DNA from: Jatrophihabitans sp. GAS493
Lineage (GTDB): Bacteria; Actinomycetota; Actinomycetes; Mycobacteriales; Jatrophihabitantaceae
Assembly (NCBI RefSeq): GCF_900230215.1
Contig: NZ_LT907982.1
Location: 2,666,001-2,730,000 of the forward strand
Direction of reading: 5' to 3'
DNA length: 64,000 bases
This document shows, in pieces, positions 10,154-57,931 of this stretch. Numbering within the stretch: position 1 is the first letter of the stretch; every line of letters starts with the position of its first letter. The notes under the pieces are model-generated. The model ran no database searches. It worked only from the letters and a program-made list of their open reading frames with translations, and was not told the DNA's origin. A program made the translations under genes and the position numbers.

Positions 10154-11407
10154 GTGGACGTGAACGTCGATACGGCAGGCATTCAGCCACCAGTTGGCAC
10201 CGACGGCGCCTCACCTCCGGGCCTATCGCAGCCGGGCCTATCTCAGCGGGGCGTATCTCAGCGGGGTGCGGTCGAGCCGTTCCACGTCATGCGGACCATG
10301 GAACTGGCCGCGGCACGCCGCGCCGCCGGTCTGGCCGTCTACGACCTCTCGGTCGGACAACCGCTCACCCCGGCACCCGCGTCGGTGCTCGCCGCGGCGC
10401 ACCGTGCCCTGCACTCCGACCGCATCGGCTACACCCCCGCCCTCGGCTTACCGCAGCTGCGTGAGGCGATCTGCGAGCACTATCGACGTACCTATGGCGT
10501 CGACGTCGCCAGCAGTCAGGTCGCGCTCACGACGGGATCCTCGGGGGGCTTCCTGCTGTCCTTCCTCGCCGCCTTCGACGCCGGGGATAGCGTCGTGGTC
10601 ACTCGTCCGGGCTACCCGGCCTACCGGAATCTGCTCTATTCATTGGGTTGTCAGGTGGTCGAACTGCCTTGTGCGGCCGAAGCCGGCTTTCAGCCGACGA
10701 TTGAGCAGCTTCGGGCACTCGATCCGGTGCCGGCCGGCCTGGTGCTGGCGAGCCCGGCCAATCCGACCGGCACGATGCTCGCGGCCGATGCGCTGCGGGA
10801 GATCGCCGAGTGGTGTGAGCAGGCGGGCGTCCGGCTGATCAGCGACGAGATCTATCACGGCATCACCTACGGAGATCCGGCGACGACGGCCTGGGGCCTT
10901 GGCCGGTCGGCCATCTGTGTCGGCTCCTTCTCCAAGTACTTCTCGATGACCGGGTGGCGACTGGGCTGGCTGCTGCTGCCCGAGGAGCTCGTCGATTCAG
11001 TCGACCGGTTGGCCGGCAACTTTGCCCTCTGTCCGCCGACGCTGTCGCAGCACGCGGCCCTGGGAGCCTTCGATGCCTACTCCGAGCTCGATGACAACGT
11101 GGCGCGGTACCGGGCGAATCGCGATTTCATGCTGGGCCGTCTCCCCCACTGCGGGTTGGATCGGCTGGCCCCAGCCGATGGCGCGTTCTACATCTACGCC
11201 GACGTCTCCCGCTGGACCGCCGACTCGCTGGCCTTCGGCGCCCGACTGCTGGCCGAGACCGGAGTGGCGGTGGCCTCGGGGATCGACTTCGATCCCGTCG
11301 ACGGTGGGCGCTTCATCCGGATGTGCTTCGCCGGGGACGCCGGCGAGATAGCGACGGCGACATCTCTGCTGCAGGAGTGGCTGGGGCGGCAGCCGGCGAT
11401 CAGCTAA
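10154..11407 (+). CDS. PLP-dependent class I/II aminotransferase
   Basis: A fold-type I aminotransferase of about 417 residues. It shows the N-terminal DLSVGQP, YTPALGLPQLREA, the ASPANPTGT loop, the SDEIYHGITYG segment and the PLP-lysine motif SFSKYFSMTGWRLGW, and ends with a C-terminal domain containing the substrate-binding Arg region RFIRMCFAG. Substrate is not certain; aspartate/tyrosine-like or a valine-pyruvate type is possible. Start is uncertain: GTG 10154 or GTG 10160. The N-terminal tail contains three copies of a 15-bp tandem unit (10222-10266) coding for LSQxG. It is divergent from hisN with only 17 nt between the starts. Confidence 0.88.
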   Translation: MDVNVDTAGIQPPVGTDGASPPGLSQPGLSQRGVSQRGAVEPFHVMRTMELAAARRAAGLAVYDLSVGQPLTPAPASVLAAAHRALHSDRIGYTPALGLPQLREAICEHYRRTYGVDVASSQVALTTGSSGGFLLSFLAAFDAGDSVVVTRPGYPAYRNLLYSLGCQVVELPCAAEAGFQPTIEQLRALDPVPAGLVLASPANPTGTMLAADALREIAEWCEQAGVRLISDEIYHGITYGDPATTAWGLGRSAICVGSFSKYFSMTGWRLGWLLLPEELVDSVDRLAGNFALCPPTLSQHAALGAFDAYSELDDNVARYRANRDFMLGRLPHCGLDRLAPADGAFYIYADVSRWTADSLAFGARLLAETGVAVASGIDFDPVDGGRFIRMCFAGDAGEIATATSLLQEWLGRQPAIS

Positions 11408-44803: not shown

Positions 44804-44847
44804 TGGTGCCCCCGGCAGGATTCGAACCTGCGCCACCGCCTCCGGAG
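44804..44847. repeat. attachment site copy, left end of the AICE
   Basis: These 44 bases are identical to 57857-57900 and correspond to the tRNA-Arg(CCG) from the anticodon loop to the CCA end. The bases to the right differ from the tRNA, so only the 3' half is present and this copy is not a tRNA gene. It marks the outer left boundary of the element, 71 nt after the stop of the secreted protein gene. Confidence 0.95.
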
Positions 44848-44890
44848 AGAGGCGTACTTCGCGGCGCACAGGAGTCTCAGAGCGGAATGC

Positions 44891-49732: not shown

Positions 49733-50947
49733 GTGGTTACTGATTCCGTCGGGAAGCGGATCGCGGCGTACCGTCGTCGTCGTGGCCTGAGTCAGGCTGC
49801 GCTGGCGGGGCTCGTAGGTCGATCGGAATCGTGGCTGTCTCAGGTCGAGCGAGGAGTTCGTTCGGTCGACAAGCTGTCCGTGCTTCTCGACATGGCTCGT
49901 GTTTTGCACGTCGATGTCGAGGCATTAACTGGCAAGCCATGGCAGTACGCGCCGAACGGGTCAGCTGTCGCTGACGGCATTGGCGCAGTTCGCCAAGTCT
50001 TCACTCGGTATGACCACCTTCTCGGAGTTCAGGCCGCCGCGTCCCGTGATATTGCTGGGCTGCGGGCGAGTATCGCAGCGCTGCACGGTGACTACCAGGC
50101 GGCGCGCTATGACCGAGTCATCGGCCAGCTGCCCTCGCTGCTCGGTGAGGTCGAGCGTCATCGAGTGGAGCATTCACAACCAGGCGAGGAGCGCGAGACC
50201 TCGCTGGTCTATATATCTGGGTATGTCCTGGCGGCGAAGCTTGTCACAAAGCTTGGCGTCACAGACCTTGCCATGCTGGCGGCCGATCGGGCGGCGAGCG
50301 CCGCGTACACCACCGATTCGCTGACGGCGGTGGGTACGTCGGCCTATCAAGTCGCGTGTGCGTTACTTCGAGCTGATCAGCCACAGGACGCGGAGCATTT
50401 GTCTGTTGGGATGGCGGAGAGGGTTGAGCGGGAAGCGCGCTCAGATTCGCCGGCGGTGGTGTCGGTTGCGGGCGCGTTGTGGCTGATATCGGCGGTGATT
50501 GCGGCCCGCCAGACGAACCGTTCCGATGCTTGGGAGCGGCTGGACCGCGCCAGTCGACTCGCTGGCTTGCTAGGCGAGGACGCCAACCACGCGTGGACCG
50601 GTTTCGGTCCGACGAACGTCGCAATTCACCGCGTCTCGGTGGCAGCTGAGTTAGGTGATCCGGGTGAAGCATTGCGGGCTGCGGCCGACGTCGATGAAGG
50701 CCGCCTACCTCCAGCACTGTTGAGCCGCCGGGCGCAGGTGCATCTCGACCTGGCGTGGGCGCAGAGCCAGCGCAAGCGCGACGCCGAAGCCACCCTGCAT
50801 CTGCTGGAAGCGGAGCGGGTCGCACCGGAGGCGATTCGCCACAACGTCATCGCCCAGGAGCTGGTCCGGGAGATGCTGAGCCGTGGCACTCGGTCTAAGA
50901 CTCGCGCGCTAGCCGATCTCGCCGGGCGGGCAGGCCTGCTCAGCTAG
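49733..50947 (+). CDS. XRE-family regulator with C-terminal TPR-like helices
   Basis: The 404-residue protein has an HTH_3 domain at residues 5-65 (RIAAYRRRRGLSQAALAGLV, SESWLSQVERGVRS) and a long helical C-terminal part with TPR-like repeats. This type is frequent in streptomycete plasmids and AICEs, where it may control excision and transfer, perhaps in response to a peptide or metabolite. GTG 49733; the 180 nt before it hold no gene. The stop is 9 nt before the next gene. Confidence 0.87.
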   Translation: MVTDSVGKRIAAYRRRRGLSQAALAGLVGRSESWLSQVERGVRSVDKLSVLLDMARVLHVDVEALTGKPWQYAPNGSAVADGIGAVRQVFTRYDHLLGVQAAASRDIAGLRASIAALHGDYQAARYDRVIGQLPSLLGEVERHRVEHSQPGEERETSLVYISGYVLAAKLVTKLGVTDLAMLAADRAASAAYTTDSLTAVGTSAYQVACALLRADQPQDAEHLSVGMAERVEREARSDSPAVVSVAGALWLISAVIAARQTNRSDAWERLDRASRLAGLLGEDANHAWTGFGPTNVAIHRVSVAAELGDPGEALRAAADVDEGRLPPALLSRRAQVHLDLAWAQSQRKRDAEATLHLLEAERVAPEAIRHNVIAQELVREMLSRGTRSKTRALADLAGRAGLLS

Positions 50948-50956
50948 TCTTGGTCG

Positions 50957-51499
50957 GTGGCACATTGCACCGTGGTCGTAACAGGTGCGCCGTTGTCTGC
51001 CCGCTGTGCTGACATCGTCTCAGCGCTCCAAACGGCCGAGGTGTCCGTCGACCTGGTGACCACCCCCGCTGCTGGTGAGTGGATCGATACCGAGGCGGTG
51101 ACAGCCGCGACCGGTGCACAGCTTCGTTCTCAGGCCCGAGCTTCGTCTTCGTCGCCTCGGGTGGGCTTGCCCGATCTGATGATCGTCTGTCCGGCCACGT
51201 TCAATACCGTGAACAAGGCTGCCCTGGGGATCGCGGACACGTCTGCGCATGGGTTCATCTGCGAATGCATTGCTTGCCGGGTGCCGACCATCGTCGTGCC
51301 GATGATCAATGACAGGCTTTGGGGGCATCCTGCCCTCGCGTCCCATATCGCTGCGTTGAAGCGGGCGGGCGTGCACTTTCTCAGTCCCCTCACCGGCGAG
51401 CCTGCCCTCGCGCCGGTTGTTTCCGGCACCGGTTCAGCCGTCGTCGCGGCGTTTGACCCCATGTGGCTGGTCGAAGCAATTCCCGCGCTGACCTCCTGA
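50957..51499 (+). CDS. flavoprotein-family protein (PPC decarboxylase-like)
   Basis: A 180-residue Rossmann-type protein with VVVTGAPLSARCADI, LMIVCPATFNTVNKAALGIAD and PMINDRLWGHPA, the sequence order of the HFCD flavoprotein family to which phosphopantothenoylcysteine decarboxylase and LanD enzymes belong. FMN binding is likely; the substrate is unknown. It is next to the XRE gene, a pairing seen in actinobacterial mobile elements, and probably cotranscribed with it. Confidence 0.82.
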   Translation: MAHCTVVVTGAPLSARCADIVSALQTAEVSVDLVTTPAAGEWIDTEAVTAATGAQLRSQARASSSSPRVGLPDLMIVCPATFNTVNKAALGIADTSAHGFICECIACRVPTIVVPMINDRLWGHPALASHIAALKRAGVHFLSPLTGEPALAPVVSGTGSAVVAAFDPMWLVEAIPALTS

Positions 51500-51626: not shown

Positions 51627-52022
51627 ATGGCCAGCTATTCAGTCGAGAGCAAGCGTCAGCCAATGGTGGCGACAGGGATCGTCGATGTGTCCGTGGAGTG
51701 GGAGGACAAGCCCGGTGGTGGCCGGCGTCCTTCGGATCGCCAAGCCCGGCACGAGGGAACGGGGATGCCGTTGTGGGGTGTCGAGGTCCTCTACCCGCAG
51801 ACGTCGTTCGGGCGGACGGCGACGGTCACGGCGAAGGTCACGGTCGGGGCGATCGAGCAGCCCAAGCCGGCCCTGTATGCGCCGATCAGCTTCGAGGGGC
51901 TGACCGTGGAGGTCCGCACGAATAAGGCCGGTGGGTTGTCGGAGACCTGGACCGCTGAGGCCATCGCCGACGCCAAGCCAGCCAGCAAGTCGTTCACCCC
52001 GCCTGCCTCGGCTGCGGCCTAG
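51627..52022 (+). CDS. conserved AICE/plasmid hypothetical protein
   Basis: A 131-residue soluble protein beginning MASYSVESKRQPMVATGIVD. The middle (MPLWGVEVLYPQTSFGRTATVTAKVTVGA) is predicted beta-rich. It has no enzymatic motif that I recognise. Its place just before the small membrane protein and TraSA gene is the position of spread (Spd) or accessory transfer proteins in pSAM2-like elements. ATG 51627 is preceded by GAGGAG. The 127 nt before hold no gene. Confidence 0.7.
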   Translation: MASYSVESKRQPMVATGIVDVSVEWEDKPGGGRRPSDRQARHEGTGMPLWGVEVLYPQTSFGRTATVTAKVTVGAIEQPKPALYAPISFEGLTVEVRTNKAGGLSETWTAEAIADAKPASKSFTPPASAAA

Positions 52023-52036
52023 GACCGGGTGACGTG

Positions 52037-52234
52037 ATGAGTGTTGTCGCGGTCGCCCTAATTCTCGGGGTCTTTGTGGTGTTCCTGGTGAGGGTTCGGC
52101 AGGTGAAAGCCGGCGGCGCGGTGGTGTGCGTGGTCTTCGGCCTGGTCCTCGGGGCCACGCCGGCTGGTCCGAATGTGAACCAGTTCCTCGATCAAGCCGG
52201 TTCCTCGGCGTGGGCGTGGGTGAGCCAGCTATGA
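52037..52234 (+). CDS. small transfer-associated membrane protein (Spd-like)
   Basis: The 65-residue protein has two hydrophobic segments (SVVAVALILGVFVVFLVR and GGAVVCVVFGLVLGATP) and a short tail. Small hydrophobic Spd proteins beside tra genes help plasmid spread in streptomycete mycelium; the assignment rests on size, hydrophobicity and position. GTG 52034 directly before ATG 52037 is an alternative start. The stop overlaps the next start in ATGA. Confidence 0.72.
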   Translation: MSVVAVALILGVFVVFLVRVRQVKAGGAVVCVVFGLVLGATPAGPNVNQFLDQAGSSAWAWVSQL

Positions 52235-53784
52235 CCCGGTTCGGGAAGTCCTACGGCGGCACCCGGCGTGACCCGGCCCCGATGCAGGTCCACATGGCCA
52301 AGGTCAAAGTGCCGCTGACGGCGGTGATCGCGGCCTGGGTCGCTCGTCGGGTCTGGGCCGGTGTGGTGGCGTGCGTGAAGCATCCCCTTACCATGCTGTT
52401 CCTGGCGTTGCTGCTGTGGCTGTGGCACCTCGACCTCGAACACGGCCCGCTGCCCATCCTCACTACGGTCGCGCTGGTCCTCGTGGTCGGTGGGGTGTGG
52501 CGGTGGCGGTGGCCGGAGTCCTTCACCCGCCACGTCGCCTGGCGGGTCCGTGGGGTCTGGCGGTCACGTCGGGTGTATCGGTACTACTGGCAGCCGGCGA
52601 TGGTCCTCACCGGCCTGTCAGTCACGATCAACGGCGAAGAACACCTCCCCACGATCACCTCCGTCCGCTCCTCAGCGACGGTGGATGTGGTGACGTTGCG
52701 GATGCTGCCTGGTCAGTGCGTCACCGACTGGGCTGGTGTCGCCGCACGGTTGGCGCAGACGTTCGGGGTGCTGGAAGTGCGGGTCCGCTCCGTCCCGACG
52801 AATCCCCGCAAGGTCCAACTCTGGGCACGCACCTCTGACCCGCTGACAGTCCCGGTGCAGCCGTTCCCGATCGCCGAGCACCCCGACTTCACCGCACTCC
52901 CGGTTGCGTTGTCGGAGGACGGGTTGCCGTACCGGCTGCGGCTGCTCGGCACGCATCTGCTGGTGGTCGGTGAGACGGGGTCGGGGAAGGGCAGTGTGTT
53001 GTGGTCGCTCCTCGCCGCGCTCGCACCGGCGATTCGGGACCGGTGGTGTGAGGTCTGGGCGATCGACCCCAAGGGCGGGATGGAACTGGCCCCCGGCGCG
53101 CAGTTGTTCGCCCGGTTCTCCTACGGCGACCCCGACGATGACGAGGCGTATGAGTACGACTTCGCCCGCATCCTCGAAGCCGCTGTGCTGGTCATGCGCC
53201 GCCGCCAAGCCGCTCTGCGCGGTCACACCCGGCTGCACAGTCCTTCGGTTCTCGAGCCGCTGATCGTGATCGTCGTCGACGAACTCGCGTCGTTAACCGC
53301 GTATGTGAATGACCGGGACGCGAAGAAGCGGATCAGCGCCGCCCTGTCCCTGCTCCTCTCTCAGGGAAGAGCGGTCGGGGTCACGGTGATCGGCGCGGTG
53401 CAAGACCCGAGAAAGGACGTCGTCCCGTTCCGTGACCTGTTCCCCACCCGCATCGCGCTGCGCCTGGCGGAAGCCGATCAGGTCGGGCTGGTCCTCGGTG
53501 CAGGGGCGAGGGATCGGGGTGCCCGTTGCGATGAGATCCCTGAATCGCTGCCCGGGGTCGGGTTTGTCGTCCTCGATGGTGTTGCCGAACCGGTGCGGGT
53601 GCGCTTCACCCACGTGACCGACGAGCACATCGCCGGCCTGGTGCGGGACTACACGCCGGGGACGATCACCGTCACCGCGACCTCGACCCGGATAAACGGC
53701 TACGACCCCGCCCTCACCGACCATCCGATGCTCACGGATGTGTCGGACGTGGTGCCTCACGCGTTGGACGGTGACGCAGCATGA
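52231..53784 (+). CDS. traSA: FtsK/SpoIIIE-type DNA translocase, TraSA/TraB-like
   Basis: The 517-residue protein is the main transfer protein of AICEs, moving double-stranded DNA between cells. Two hydrophobic segments lie at about 55-95, followed by an FtsK ATPase domain with Walker A GETGSGKGS and Walker B LIVIVVDELASL, and VTVIGAVQDPRK and PTRIALRL further on. The DNA-recognition gamma-type wing is not evident. ATG 52231 overlaps the upstream stop by 4 nt and its own stop overlaps the next start by 4 nt. Confidence 0.92.
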   Translation: MTRFGKSYGGTRRDPAPMQVHMAKVKVPLTAVIAAWVARRVWAGVVACVKHPLTMLFLALLLWLWHLDLEHGPLPILTTVALVLVVGGVWRWRWPESFTRHVAWRVRGVWRSRRVYRYYWQPAMVLTGLSVTINGEEHLPTITSVRSSATVDVVTLRMLPGQCVTDWAGVAARLAQTFGVLEVRVRSVPTNPRKVQLWARTSDPLTVPVQPFPIAEHPDFTALPVALSEDGLPYRLRLLGTHLLVVGETGSGKGSVLWSLLAALAPAIRDRWCEVWAIDPKGGMELAPGAQLFARFSYGDPDDDEAYEYDFARILEAAVLVMRRRQAALRGHTRLHSPSVLEPLIVIVVDELASLTAYVNDRDAKKRISAALSLLLSQGRAVGVTVIGAVQDPRKDVVPFRDLFPTRIALRLAEADQVGLVLGAGARDRGARCDEIPESLPGVGFVVLDGVAEPVRVRFTHVTDEHIAGLVRDYTPGTITVTATSTRINGYDPALTDHPMLTDVSDVVPHALDGDAA

Positions 53785-54191
53785 CCACCACTACCGGCAC
53801 GCGCCCGCTGCACGCCAGCGTCGTTGGCGACGACGAGGCCGTGGCCTTGCGGTTGCGCTGCGAGCTTCCCACCGATGATCATGTCGGCGACCCGGCTCTC
53901 CGGGTGTTGGTGCCGGTGGCGTTGTCGCGGCAGGAGCTGGTCACGGCGTTCTACATCGGCATCGACCCCGGCGACAACCCGACCGCCCTCACCGGGCACG
54001 AGGTGGAGGAGTCGCTACTGGTCGCTGTGCTGGGTCGTGGGGTGTGGGAGATCCAAGACGAAGCCCGCGACCTCGCCACCACGATTCCACGGGATCTGGA
54101 CGCGGCCCGGTTCCTACGCGGCTGCCAGCTCCTCGCCGACCAGTACCTGACCCGCGTCACGACAGGGAACCACCCATGGCACACAAGATGA
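53781..54191 (+). CDS. AICE hypothetical protein
   Basis: The 136-residue acidic soluble protein begins MTTTTGTRPLHASVVGDDEA. No catalytic motif is seen. It starts in an ATGA overlap with the TraSA gene and its end overlaps the start of the WhiB-like gene by 16 nt, so it is part of a coupled operon. Proteins of this size occur at the same place in other AICEs; the function is unknown. Confidence 0.7.
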   Translation: MTTTTGTRPLHASVVGDDEAVALRLRCELPTDDHVGDPALRVLVPVALSRQELVTAFYIGIDPGDNPTALTGHEVEESLLVAVLGRGVWEIQDEARDLATTIPRDLDAARFLRGCQLLADQYLTRVTTGNHPWHTR

Positions 54192-54592
54192 TGACCGGCC
54201 AAACGCTGATGCCGTTCGGTGTCCCGGTCGTGTCGGTGGAGCATCGTGGCGAGTTGCTGCGCCTGGTTGCCGACGATTGGCGCGACTCAGCCGCCTGCAC
54301 CTCACCGAACGCAAGCGTCCGTGATTCGCGGGGCGTTGACCCGTTCTACCCTGCCGACCCCGACACCCTGACGGATGTCGCACGGTCGATCTGTGGCCGG
54401 TGCCCGGTCCAGGTCTCCTGCCTCGCGGTCGTGCTGATCAGCAATGAAGACCAGGGCATCTGGGGCGGCACGACACCCCTGGTCCGGGACCGGATTTGCA
54501 TGGACCTGGCCGACGGTGCCCCAGTCTCGGTTGTGTTGGCTGGCGTCAACGCAGCCTTGACAGCCGATTCCGGTGCGGGGGTGGCCGCATGA
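54176..54592 (+). CDS. WhiB-family protein encoded by the AICE
   Basis: The 138-residue protein has a WhiB domain with cluster cysteines at 41, 73, 76 and 82 (AACTSPN, then CGRCPVQVSC) and the GIWGGTT turn. N-terminal and C-terminal extensions are unusual, and the basic DNA-binding tail expected after the turn is weak. It may act with the host sigma factor to control the element, or antagonise host WhiB proteins. ATG 54176; the stop overlaps the repSA start (ATGA). Confidence 0.85.
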   Translation: MAHKMMTGQTLMPFGVPVVSVEHRGELLRLVADDWRDSAACTSPNASVRDSRGVDPFYPADPDTLTDVARSICGRCPVQVSCLAVVLISNEDQGIWGGTTPLVRDRICMDLADGAPVSVVLAGVNAALTADSGAGVAA

Positions 54593-56136
54593 GAACCGCC
54601 CGCAACCCAGGTGTGACGGATCGGCTCGCACATGACCTCGCCGAAGCCGAAGGGGTCTGCGTGCAGCCACTGCTACGCCGGTTGATCGACCGCGACACCG
54701 GCCACGCCACCGTCGTCATCCTGCCCTGCGGCTCGACCAGGGCGTCTCGGTGTGTGCCATGCGCGGAGAAAGCCCGCCGATTGCGGATGCAGCAATGCAC
54801 CGAAGGGTGGCACCTCACCGAAGAACTCCCCGACAAACCAACGGCAACCTCGGACGACGACCAGGGCGACGGTGACGACCTGGTCGACGAGTTGGGCGAG
54901 CGTCGGGTGCGGTCTACCCGTCGGCGGCAAGATGCCCCGGACCTTCCCCGGCTGCCGATCGAGGACCGGACCGTCGGTGCGTCGTTCGACGGGCGGCAGG
55001 GGAAGGTGTTCCGCCCGTCGATGTTCATCACGCTCACCCTGCCCTCCTACGGCAAGATCAGCCCCGGCACCGGAGTGCCGGTCAACCGACGGACGTATGA
55101 CTACCGCCGTGCCGCGCTCGACGCGCTGCTGTTTCCGAAAGTGATCGATCGGTGGGTGCAGAACCTGCGCCGCGCTGCTGGCTTCCAAGTCCAGTACTTC
55201 GCTGCGGTCGAACCGCAGAAGCGGTTGGCGCCGCATTTGCATGCCGCTGTCCGTGGTGCGATCCCGAGAGCGCTGGTCAAGCAAGTCACCGCCGGGACGT
55301 ATCACCAGGTCTGGTGGCCCTCCATCGACGAGCCGGTCTATCAGGACGGGGACGTGATGCCGGTCTGGGACCGCGACCTCGCCGGCTACGTCGACCCGGT
55401 CACCGGCGAAGCACTCCGCACCTGGGGCGATGCGCTCGACGATCTTGATCTCGACCCGGACGCGAAACCGATGCACGTCGTTCGGCTCGGGAAGCAGGTC
55501 GACATCCAGGGCATCATCGCTCCTTCCCCGGACGCGGACCGGGCCGTTCGGTATCTGACGAAGTATTTGGCGAAGTCGATGGCCGACACCTATGACGACC
55601 CCTATGACATGGACACCGCCCGCCAAGCGCACCTGAACCGGTTGCACGCTGAGATCCGGGTGCTGCCGTGCTCGCCGAAATGCGCGAACTGGCTGCGCTA
55701 CGGCATCCAACCCGCTGACCCCGGCCCGGGGCTCACTCCGGGCCGTTGCATCTCGAAGGCCCACGACGCTGAGCACCTGGGCCTCGGTGGGCGGCGTGTT
55801 CTCGTCTCAAGGAAGTGGACGGGGAAGACCCTCGACCAGCACAAGGCCGACCGCTGCGAGATCGTCCGCGCCGTCCTGGCTGAGGCCGGGATGGAGATGC
55901 AAGACCGGGACCGGTGCGCCGCTGACCAGCTCAGTGAAGACGGGCTGCCCCGGTTTCGGTGGGAACCGATCGACGTGACCCAAGCCGACTACCAGACCGT
56001 TATCGGCCACGCCCTCATCCAGCACAGGACGTGGAAAGCCCAATACGAACAAGCGAAAGCGTTGGCTGCGAACGGCCCACCGGGGCCTGTGGACAGTCGT
56101 TCGGCAACCACCCAACCCGCCGCAACAGCGGCCTAA
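54589..56136 (+). CDS. repSA: replication initiator RepSA (rolling-circle type)
   Basis: The 515-residue protein is the AICE replication initiator, which nicks the double-strand origin. A cysteine pair (RCVPCAEKARRLR) near the N-terminus, the beta strand with FITLTLPSYG, the HUH-like LAPHLHAAVRG and the catalytic-tyrosine region RAVRYLTKYLAKS are the family's conserved blocks. PCSPKCANWLRYG may be a zinc site. It is coupled to the WhiB-like gene upstream; the xis gene starts 14 nt after its stop. Confidence 0.9.
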   Translation: MRTARNPGVTDRLAHDLAEAEGVCVQPLLRRLIDRDTGHATVVILPCGSTRASRCVPCAEKARRLRMQQCTEGWHLTEELPDKPTATSDDDQGDGDDLVDELGERRVRSTRRRQDAPDLPRLPIEDRTVGASFDGRQGKVFRPSMFITLTLPSYGKISPGTGVPVNRRTYDYRRAALDALLFPKVIDRWVQNLRRAAGFQVQYFAAVEPQKRLAPHLHAAVRGAIPRALVKQVTAGTYHQVWWPSIDEPVYQDGDVMPVWDRDLAGYVDPVTGEALRTWGDALDDLDLDPDAKPMHVVRLGKQVDIQGIIAPSPDADRAVRYLTKYLAKSMADTYDDPYDMDTARQAHLNRLHAEIRVLPCSPKCANWLRYGIQPADPGPGLTPGRCISKAHDAEHLGLGGRRVLVSRKWTGKTLDQHKADRCEIVRAVLAEAGMEMQDRDRCAADQLSEDGLPRFRWEPIDVTQADYQTVIGHALIQHRTWKAQYEQAKALAANGPPGPVDSRSATTQPAATAA

Positions 56137-56150
56137 CCAGAGGGATTCCC

Positions 56151-56339
56151 ATGTCGCGTCAGCCAGTTCGGCTCACTGTTGCCGAGGTCTGTGAGGAGCT
56201 TGGCGTGTCTCGGTCCACGTTCTATGAATGGCGGGTCAAAGGCCGTGCACCGCGTTGCCTGCGGTTGCCGAATGGCGAGTTGCGTGTGCGCAGGGATGAG
56301 CTGGAGAACTGGCTCGACTCTTGCGAAGAGGTCGCATAG
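56151..56339 (+). CDS. xis: excisionase (MerR/HTH_17-like)
   Basis: The 62-residue winged-helix protein has RLTVAEVCEELGVSRSTFYEW followed by LPNGELRVRRDELENWL, the HTH_17 excisionase pattern. Xis directs the integrase towards excision. ATG 56151 follows AGAGGGA. Its stop overlaps the integrase start by one base, so the two are translated together. (The frame continues upstream in the repSA gene but that part is out of the repSA frame.). Confidence 0.9.
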   Translation: MSRQPVRLTVAEVCEELGVSRSTFYEWRVKGRAPRCLRLPNGELRVRRDELENWLDSCEEVA

Positions 56340-57706
56340 TGGCGACGACGTTTGACGTTCGGGTCTGGCAGATCGAGACCTTCGAGGGGGTGCGGAGCGT
56401 CAGCTACCGAGTTCGTTGGAGGGCTGACGCCCAACGTTTTAAACGGACGTTCCATACGAAGGCCCTCGCCGACGGATTCCGCGCCGACCTGATCGCGTCG
56501 ACTCGGCGAGGCGATGCGTTCGAGGTTTCGACGGGGCTGCCTGCGTCGATGGCCCGTGGTGGCGTTGGTGTGTCGTGGTATTCCTTTGCTTTGGACTACA
56601 CGGACTTGAAGTGGCCTCGCATTGCCGCGACGACGCGGCGTACCCACGCGGAGGCCCTAACCGCTGTGACGGTGCTGTTGCTCTCGTCGATCCGGGGCTG
56701 CCCGGAGGAGCAGCTGCTGCGCCGCGCACTGAAGCGGTGGGCCTTCAACACGACTGGCCGGAATGACCCGTCGTGTCCGCCTGAGGTTCGGCGCGCGCTG
56801 CGGTGGGTTGCGAGTCATACGCGGGACGTGTCGGCGCTCAGTGATCCGGTGGTCCTTCGCGACGTGCTCGACGGCCTGGCGCTTCGTCTCGATGGCACGC
56901 ATCGCTCGGCGAGCGTTGTTCTTCGGTGGCGCAAGATCTTCAACAACGCGCTTGAGTACGCGGTCGATCGGAAACTGCTCGACGCGAACCCGCTCCCTGC
57001 GCTGAAGTGGAAGCCACCGCGCTCTGTCCGAGCGATCGACGCCCGGTCGGTGGTGAACCCGGTACAGGCGCGGACGCTGTTGAATGCCGTGCGAGCGGAG
57101 CTCCCGTCGGGGCCTCGATTCGTCGCGCTGTACGGGTGCCTGTATTTCGCTGCGCTGCGACCTGAGGAGGCGTCCGGGCTGTCTGTGCAGAACCTTGCTC
57201 TGCCGGCGGTGGGCTGGGGCGAGCTCCATTTGGAGCGCGCACGCCCGTTCGCTGGGCGGGAATGGACCAACTCTGGGGAGGCCCGTGATGATCGCGAACT
57301 CAAGCAGCGGGCGGTGGGGGAGCTGCGGGTCGTGCCGTCGCCTCCGGAGTTGACTGCGCTGCTTCGCTGGCATCTGGACGAGTTCGGGACCACACCTGAC
57401 GGGCGCTTGTTCGTGGGGGAGCGCAACCGTGAGCATCTGCCGGCGTCGACCGTGTTCCGGACTTGGCAGCGTGCCCGGTGCAAGGCGTTCACCCCGGAGG
57501 CGGTCGCTTCGCCGTTGGCTCGCACGCCGTATGACCTGCGTCATGCTGCGGTGTCGACGTGGCTGGCTGCGGGCGTTCCACCGACTCAGGTTGCCGCGTG
57601 GGCGGGTCACTCGGTCGAGGTGCTGTTGGGCATCTATGCGAAGTGCCTCGACGGGGGAGCGGCCCAGATGCGGGCTCGTGTTGAGAACGCGCTGGCCGGT
57701 AAGTGA
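56339..57706 (+). CDS. int: tyrosine recombinase (AICE integrase)
   Basis: The 455-residue phage-type integrase catalyses site-specific recombination at the tRNA-Arg site. The catalytic domain has Arg in YFAALRPEEASGL, PYDLRHAAVSTWL, WAGHSVEVLLGIYAKC (His and nucleophile Tyr), giving the full R-H-R-H-Y set; the N-terminal part binds arm and core sites. GTG 56339 overlaps the xis stop. The stop lies about 150 nt from the core, within which the arm repeats lie. Confidence 0.94.
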   Translation: MATTFDVRVWQIETFEGVRSVSYRVRWRADAQRFKRTFHTKALADGFRADLIASTRRGDAFEVSTGLPASMARGGVGVSWYSFALDYTDLKWPRIAATTRRTHAEALTAVTVLLLSSIRGCPEEQLLRRALKRWAFNTTGRNDPSCPPEVRRALRWVASHTRDVSALSDPVVLRDVLDGLALRLDGTHRSASVVLRWRKIFNNALEYAVDRKLLDANPLPALKWKPPRSVRAIDARSVVNPVQARTLLNAVRAELPSGPRFVALYGCLYFAALRPEEASGLSVQNLALPAVGWGELHLERARPFAGREWTNSGEARDDRELKQRAVGELRVVPSPPELTALLRWHLDEFGTTPDGRLFVGERNREHLPASTVFRTWQRARCKAFTPEAVASPLARTPYDLRHAAVSTWLAAGVPPTQVAAWAGHSVEVLLGIYAKCLDGGAAQMRARVENALAGK

Positions 57707-57856: not shown

Positions 57857-57900
57857 TGGTGCCCCCGGCAGGATTCGAACCTGCGCCACCGCCTCCGGAG
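57857..57900. repeat. attachment site copy, right end of the AICE, inside the functional tRNA
   Basis: Identical to 44804-44847 over 44 nt. It forms the 3' half of the complete tRNA-Arg(CCG) gene, from the anticodon loop to CCA, so the insertion rebuilt the tRNA and did not disrupt it. Confidence 0.95.
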
Positions 57901-57931
57901 GGCGGTGCTCTATCCCCTGAGCTACGGGGGC
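57857..57931 (-). tRNA. tRNA-Arg (anticodon CCG)
   Basis: On the minus strand the sequence folds as a complete cloverleaf: acceptor GCCCCCG/CGGGGGC, D stem GCTC/GAGC, anticodon stem CCGCC/GGCGG with loop CTCCGGA (anticodon CCG, reads CGG codons), T arm GCAGG-TTCGAAT-CCTGC, discriminator A and an encoded CCA. The 3' half is the AICE attachment site. argS, which charges it, lies about 5 kb downstream. Confidence 0.97.

Follow-up and report, generated by a model that had tools for sequence, protein, structure and literature searches.

Within an integrated AICE of Jatrophihabitans sp. GAS493, the gene lying between the DNA translocase Tra and the replication initiator RepSA encodes a WhiB-like (Wbl) protein whose N-terminal extension, judging from its sequence, contains a conserved segment resembling a sliding-clamp-binding motif and points to the replisome. 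The original prediction for this gene had recorded the extension as a length difference only. An N-terminal hexapeptide of the form Q-[LMT]-x-[LMF]-[PV]-[LFI] was found in all 17 distinct element Wbls identified: the one in the window (i.e. the whole 64,000-nucleotide stretch of DNA analysed here), one in a Frankiales MAG (locus L107), 14 in the genus Kribbella, and one, L315, from a different genome in the order to which K. antiqua belongs. From these comparisons we propose, as a reading that is plausible if still short of probable, that the protein is an AICE-specific adaptor that would dock on the clamp, bind sigma-A and couple transcription of the tra-rep operon to replication of the element.

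The integrated AICE measures 13,053 bp and lies between exact 44-bp direct repeats at a tRNA-Arg(CCG) gene. The left att repeat (44804..44847) and the right att repeat (57857..57900) were assigned no strand, and the latter falls within the tRNA-Arg gene called by ARAGORN at 57857-57931. A further ARAGORN tRNA-Arg call at 44804-44875 shares only its first 44 bp with the att repeat, and for this reason it is read as a remnant of attL rather than as a gene. Assignment to the AICEs was made on these direct repeats at a tRNA gene and on an FtsK-type Tra and a RepSA-type initiator, both of which scored above their Pfam cut-offs. Upstream of Tra are an HTH/XRE regulator of 404 aa (49733-50947) and, following it, a protein with a CoaC-like flavoprotein domain (50957-51499); the right half of the AICE also holds an ORF of 131 aa (51627-52022). 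The forward strand then carries, in order, the FtsK/TraB-type DNA translocase Tra (52126..53784, start provisional; PF01580, 37.1 bits, cut-off 24), a 136-aa ORF termed orf136 (53781..54191), the Wbl coding sequence (54176..54592; 138 aa), the RepSA rolling-circle replication initiator (54589..56136; 515 aa; PF20199, 293.6 bits, cut-off 34) and a putative tyrosine recombinase, or integrase (56321..57706). The recombinase match is weak (PF00589, 19.7 bits, under the cut-off of 27.1), and its position adjoining att fits the assignment. Successive frames overlap, by ATGA between Tra and orf136, by 16 nt between orf136 and the start of Wbl, and again by ATGA (54589..54592) between Wbl and RepSA, where the Wbl stop codon (54590-54592) is interleaved with the RepSA ATG (54589-54591). 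No Pfam, PHROGs or NCBIfam match was obtained for orf136, which has a counterpart of 69% amino acid identity in a sister AICE (L066, described below) and is not present in L107.

The Wbl protein scored 49.9 bits against Pfam Whib (PF02467; cut-off 23.6, E = 4.7e-13) and is one of five Wbl matches in the genome, the remaining four being outside the AICE. The original prediction had described an element-borne Wbl within the tra-rep operon that possessed all four cluster cysteines, an N-terminal extension and a weak basic tail and was translationally coupled to repSA; the ATGA overlap agrees with the last of these, and the protein itself bears out the others. The cysteines C41, C73, C76 and C82 (C-x31-C-x2-C-x5-C; codons spanning 54296..54421, forward strand), taken as the Fe-S ligands, are shared by all 17 element Wbls, as are G94, W96 and G97 of the GIWGG turn (residues 94-98; 54455..54469, forward strand), in which W96 aligns to W60 of WhiB1. 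The conserved Trp W35, equivalent to W3 of WhiB1, is preceded by 34 residues, making the N-terminus 32 residues longer than that of WhiB1, and residues 57-59 read FYP. With regard to the tail the prediction was understated, as the 41 residues that follow the GIWG turn carry a net charge of -2 and do not form a basic tail. A basic C-terminal DNA-binding tail is common among Wbls, although it depends on the subclass and is not found in all of them. Over the first 40 tail residues the mean charge was -1.6 in the 17 element Wbls versus +3.3 in 142 control Wbls, with tails acidic to neutral in most of the element set and L107 (net +4) as the exception.

A sequence search of the PDB with the window Wbl returned WhiB1 at the top (E = 6.5e-7). 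An AF2 model built from the 17-row alignment had a mean pLDDT of 77.3, and its best Foldseek matches were WhiB1:sigma-A4 chains at E values of 0.011-0.013, none falling below 0.001, with TM scores (by target) of 0.70-0.74. In WhiB3, replacement of F31, F32 or W76 by alanine is reported to abolish binding to sigma-A region 4 (PMC10245118), these residues being equivalent to F17, F18 and W60 of WhiB1. By alignment, the corresponding positions in the window Wbl are occupied by F57, Y58 and W96, and W35 is also present. One of the contact aromatics is missing from some element Wbls (L116, for example, reads PAFT), which leaves room for sigma binding to vary within the set.

The hexapeptide of the window Wbl is QTLMPF, beginning at Q9 (54200..54217, forward strand). 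Across the 17-protein alignment 15 columns were invariant (M1, Q9, P17, R24, W35, C41, C73, C76, V78, C82, L83, G94, W96, G97 and R104), which places Q9 on a par with the four cysteines. The hexapeptides recovered were QLELVF (five proteins), QLVLPL and QLALPL (three each), and QLLLPL, QLPLPF, QLQLPI, QMELPI, QLAFPL (L107) and QTLMPF (window). The hexameric clamp-binding motif has been described as Q-aliphatic-x-[L/M]-x-[F/L], with a terminal Ile tolerated and position 2 tolerant (PMC11139829), and a form QLxLxL has also been reported (PMC4564189). Using a strict hexamer derived from the published consensus, Q[AVILM]x[LM]x[FL] (PMC11139829), 13 of the 17 proteins matched and the other four were each off by one position: the window (T at position 2), L107 (F at position 4), and L311 and L312 (I at position 6). 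Among other Wbls in the fetched loci, none of 144 distinct cores had a strict or relaxed match within the 45 aa upstream, nor was the hexapeptide carried by any of 16 further Wbl domains in L348-L361. When extensions were shuffled, a strict match arose in 0.5-4.4% of trials; the 17 proteins fall into approximately five related groups, and therefore no combined probability is given. Codons of the hexapeptide differ at silent positions within close groups. Use of the alternative ATG starts at 54188 and 54191 would still retain the hexapeptide, and the assumed starts of the 16 homologues lie at positions comparable to that of the window Wbl. Residues 9-13 had pLDDT values below 50 in the AF2 models of two members, low pLDDT being only a proxy for disorder, and a helix is predicted at residues 21-30 of the window Wbl, between the hexapeptide and W35.

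Relatives of the element Wbl were collected by several routes, with duplicate loci counted once (L067 = L107; L190 = L271 = L319 = L309; L270 = L127; L272 = L116; L273 = L123). A RepSA search of the order matched 96 of 397 genomes, and among 40 RepSA neighbourhoods taken from the matches listed one had a Wbl in the slot between Tra and RepSA (L067, from the Frankiales MAG and identical to the L107 locus). When RepSA was searched against GTDB species genomes and the best 80 loci were used, element-type Wbls occurred in four (L107 and Kribbella L116, L123 and L127) and Wbls outside the Tra-RepSA slot in two (L137 and L156). Two Nocardioides AICEs have short Wbls in the slot (L113:5732-5965 and L125:5702-5959; 77 and 85 aa, respectively), which lack the extension and read GFWAGRD at the turn. 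A different small cysteine-rich protein (LNFAQVC...) is encoded just upstream of RepSA in L119 (5663-5989), L117, L120, L126 and L122 (two copies), from Jiangella and a related MAG.

A profile of five element Wbls was also run on 391 genomes belonging to the same order as the K. antiqua genome, and yielded 15 matches in 14 genomes at E = 2.6e-25 or better, the next appearing only at 6.2e-17; as this profile contains the extension, the finding of extended proteins was favoured. All 13 regions fetched had Tra upstream and RepSA downstream, one of them being the IMG/VR copy of another. Overall, the comparison with other AICE Wbls that had been suggested for this gene produced 16 further proteins, mostly from Kribbella, and the Tra-RepSA slot holds the Wbl in all 17 element loci. 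In a phylum-wide search of 396 genomes, the window protein alone aligned from profile position 1 among the matches listed. Wbl matches in the plasmid collection (seven records in one search, 21 in another with the K. sindirgiensis query) and in the phage collection (290 records) were all below 60% identity. Among 80 loci taken from IMG/VR the only element-type Wbl was L190, with the same sequence as that of the AICE in genome G784; this record (IMGVR_UViG_2873330523_000001) is filed as a virus and is the Tra-Wbl-RepSA element of that genome. In a tree of Wbl cores the element set needed two changes (none of 500 shuffles was as low) and two other Wbls fell inside it, but the columns are few, the branches long and the support weak, and no weight is placed on this tree.

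To avoid a choice of loci based on the motif, K. turkmenica RepSA was searched against 38 Kribbella genomes, the genus itself having been chosen for its known Wbl matches. Of the 17 distinct RepSA loci recovered, from 15 genomes, 14 were of the Tra-Wbl-RepSA arrangement, all with the hexapeptide, and the remaining three (L385-L387) had no Wbl, no Tra match and a RepSA that was truncated or split. A sister AICE in the window genome (L066:3233-13487, on contig C1 near 833 kb) is located at a tRNA-Ala with a 48-bp att repeat and has a RepSA 92% identical to that in the window. Its orf136 and RepSA are retained, no match to Tra was obtained and the Wbl core is gone; what is left is a 39-aa ORF (10333-10452) that is similar to the C-terminal tail of the Wbl and still overlaps the frames on either side. 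Thus, in both the Kribbella survey and the sister AICE the Wbl travels with Tra, which is compatible with a function while the element is active and transferring but also with simple joint decay.

Polymerases of the host genomes provide a comparison for the hexapeptide. In the window host, a DnaE1-type protein contains QFDLF and the two DinB-type proteins contain QLELPF and QLSFDL, the last with Phe at position 4 as in QLAFPL of L107; no clamp pattern match was found in its second DnaE-type protein (L324). Four Kribbella DinBs have QLALPF, beside QLALPL in Kribbella element Wbls, and DinBs of the MAG carrying L107 have QLALDL and QLELPF. Host Y-family polymerases overall matched the pattern in 12 of 25 loci, several of the matches being apparently incidental, and in four of 25 the ORF was not picked; only matches on the C-terminal side in DinB-type proteins are cited here. 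Mycobacterial ImuB is reported to depend on its clamp motif, QLPLWG, for its foci with the clamp (PMC10421592). Within the elements themselves, the strict pattern occurred in four of 134 RepSA proteins, at scattered places, and in 100 of 123 Tra proteins, where almost every match inspected fell in a single conserved stretch (QVDLVL type). The Tra match was rejected as a clamp motif and judged to be part of the fold. Its frequency indicates that the pattern alone is weak and that context matters.

Under the proposed adaptor role, the host sliding clamp (DnaN), loaded on element DNA as it replicates, would be the docking site of the N-terminal tail, and the [4Fe-4S] core would bind RNA polymerase through region 4 of sigma-A. 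Tethering to DNA, which the basic tail gives other Wbls, could then be supplied by the clamp, and transcription of the tra-rep operon would be expected to rise when, and near where, the element replicates. The sign of the effect (activation versus repression) is the least certain step. A more specific version, which we consider doubtful, would have the clamp serve as a mobile enhancer for tra-rep, with Wbl bringing RNA polymerase that contains sigma-A to the host clamp while the AICE DNA replicates. Several observations count against clamp docking by these proteins: the window copy misses the strict consensus, the 17 relatives amount to far fewer independent cases, the two short slot Wbls of Nocardioides have no extension, the N-terminus of WhiB3 contacts RNA polymerase, the L107 tail is positive, and some members are without sigma-A4 aromatics.

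The contact made by WhiB3 suggests another use for the hexapeptide, namely that it touches RNA polymerase at the beta flap tip and sigma-A4, as the WhiB3 N-terminus does, so that the protein would be a sigma-A-bound Wbl with a different N-terminal arm. L7, P8, I14 and W15 of WhiB3 are reported to pack against sigma-A4 and the beta tip in a hydrophobic core (PMC10245118), and the element motif is likewise hydrophobic and proline-rich, with the invariant P17 after it. However, the WhiB3 contact lies approximately 10 residues before W17 whereas the element motif lies 21-26 residues before W35 with the predicted helix (21-30) between them, and a polymerase arm would leave unexplained both the invariant Gln and the match to clamp motifs of host polymerases. 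We therefore regard this reading as unlikely. An ordinary accessory Wbl unconnected with the clamp, which would act as a redox or NO regulator or as a decoy in the contacts between host Wbls and sigma, appears less likely still; the hexapeptide would then be a chance or ancestral structural feature. In its favour are the conservation of the core ligands and of the types of contact residue, and the WhiB of mycobacteriophage TM4, which is reported to be a dominant negative of host WhiB2. Yet this explanation does not account for the strongest conservation, which is in the extension, and the gene was found in the Kribbella survey alongside intact Tra and RepSA, not as cargo of sporadic occurrence. 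Nor did the earlier suggestion that redox or NO sensing is built into element replication gain ground, as nothing marks the cluster as a sensor as opposed to a structural cofactor.

The least likely of the alternatives weighed is an Hda-like feedback, in which Wbl would sit on the clamp behind the fork and its core would restrain RepSA or sigma-A, limiting copy number per round. The N-terminal PAQLSLPLYL of Hda is reported to dock on the clamp with a KD of 0.38 micromolar, and Hda regulates replication initiation (PMC11139829); in the window there is translational coupling between Wbl and RepSA. The sequence, however, gives no hint of an action of the Wbl core on a Rep protein, and the element that lacks the Wbl core has also lost Tra and is not obviously a copy-number mutant.

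Wbl proteins are known as partners of sigma-A and as genes carried by phages and mobile elements. With the clamp-docked, sigma-A-binding adaptor, transcription in a bacterial mobile element would be tied to the host replisome through a conserved Wbl subfamily that has a clamp-motif-like N-terminus and is encoded in a rolling-circle replication operon, and if the motif works, one invariant Gln would offer a direct handle on the way in which these elements sense that they are replicating. Even without a role at the clamp, this Wbl subfamily accompanies intact Tra and RepSA in Kribbella elements and is not random cargo.

Several known systems bear on this proposal. The element Wbl resembles WhiB1 and WhiB3 (PF02467) in its four-cysteine core, G[VI]WGG turn and sigma-A4-contact aromatics, and differs in its 32 extra N-terminal residues with the clamp-motif-like hexapeptide, its non-basic tail and its location on an AICE. 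An AICE-borne WhiB gene is already in print, as the Frankia FeuI6863 AICE encodes a protein described as 'putative WhiB-like' (PMC3218068). Searches of the open-licence literature, which cannot prove absence, turned up no Wbl described as bearing a clamp motif. The disordered N-terminal hexameric motif of E. coli Hda (PAQLSLPLYL) is similar to GQLVLPLVP of the K. antiqua Wbl, although Hda is an AAA+ protein of unrelated fold that acts on DnaA (PMC11139829). Transposases of IS elements are likewise described as mobile-element proteins that use the host clamp via a short motif, but they are catalytic, their motif is mostly C-terminal and pentameric, and they are not transcription factors (PMC4549789). 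The closest functional analogy, and an analogy only, is with T4 gp33, which is reported to bind the flap of RNA polymerase, its sigma-region-4 part, not to bind DNA alone, and to carry on a linker a clamp motif that it needs to activate late genes (PMC7892883). It is unrelated to the element Wbl in sequence and fold and works with a phage clamp, whereas use of the clamp by the element Wbl is inferred. If the proposed coupling is true, these AICEs would contain a bacterial-element counterpart of T4 late transcription, assembled from an Fe-S transcription factor and the clamp and sigma factor of the host, and a working motif would extend clamp-dependent transcription beyond T4-type phages.
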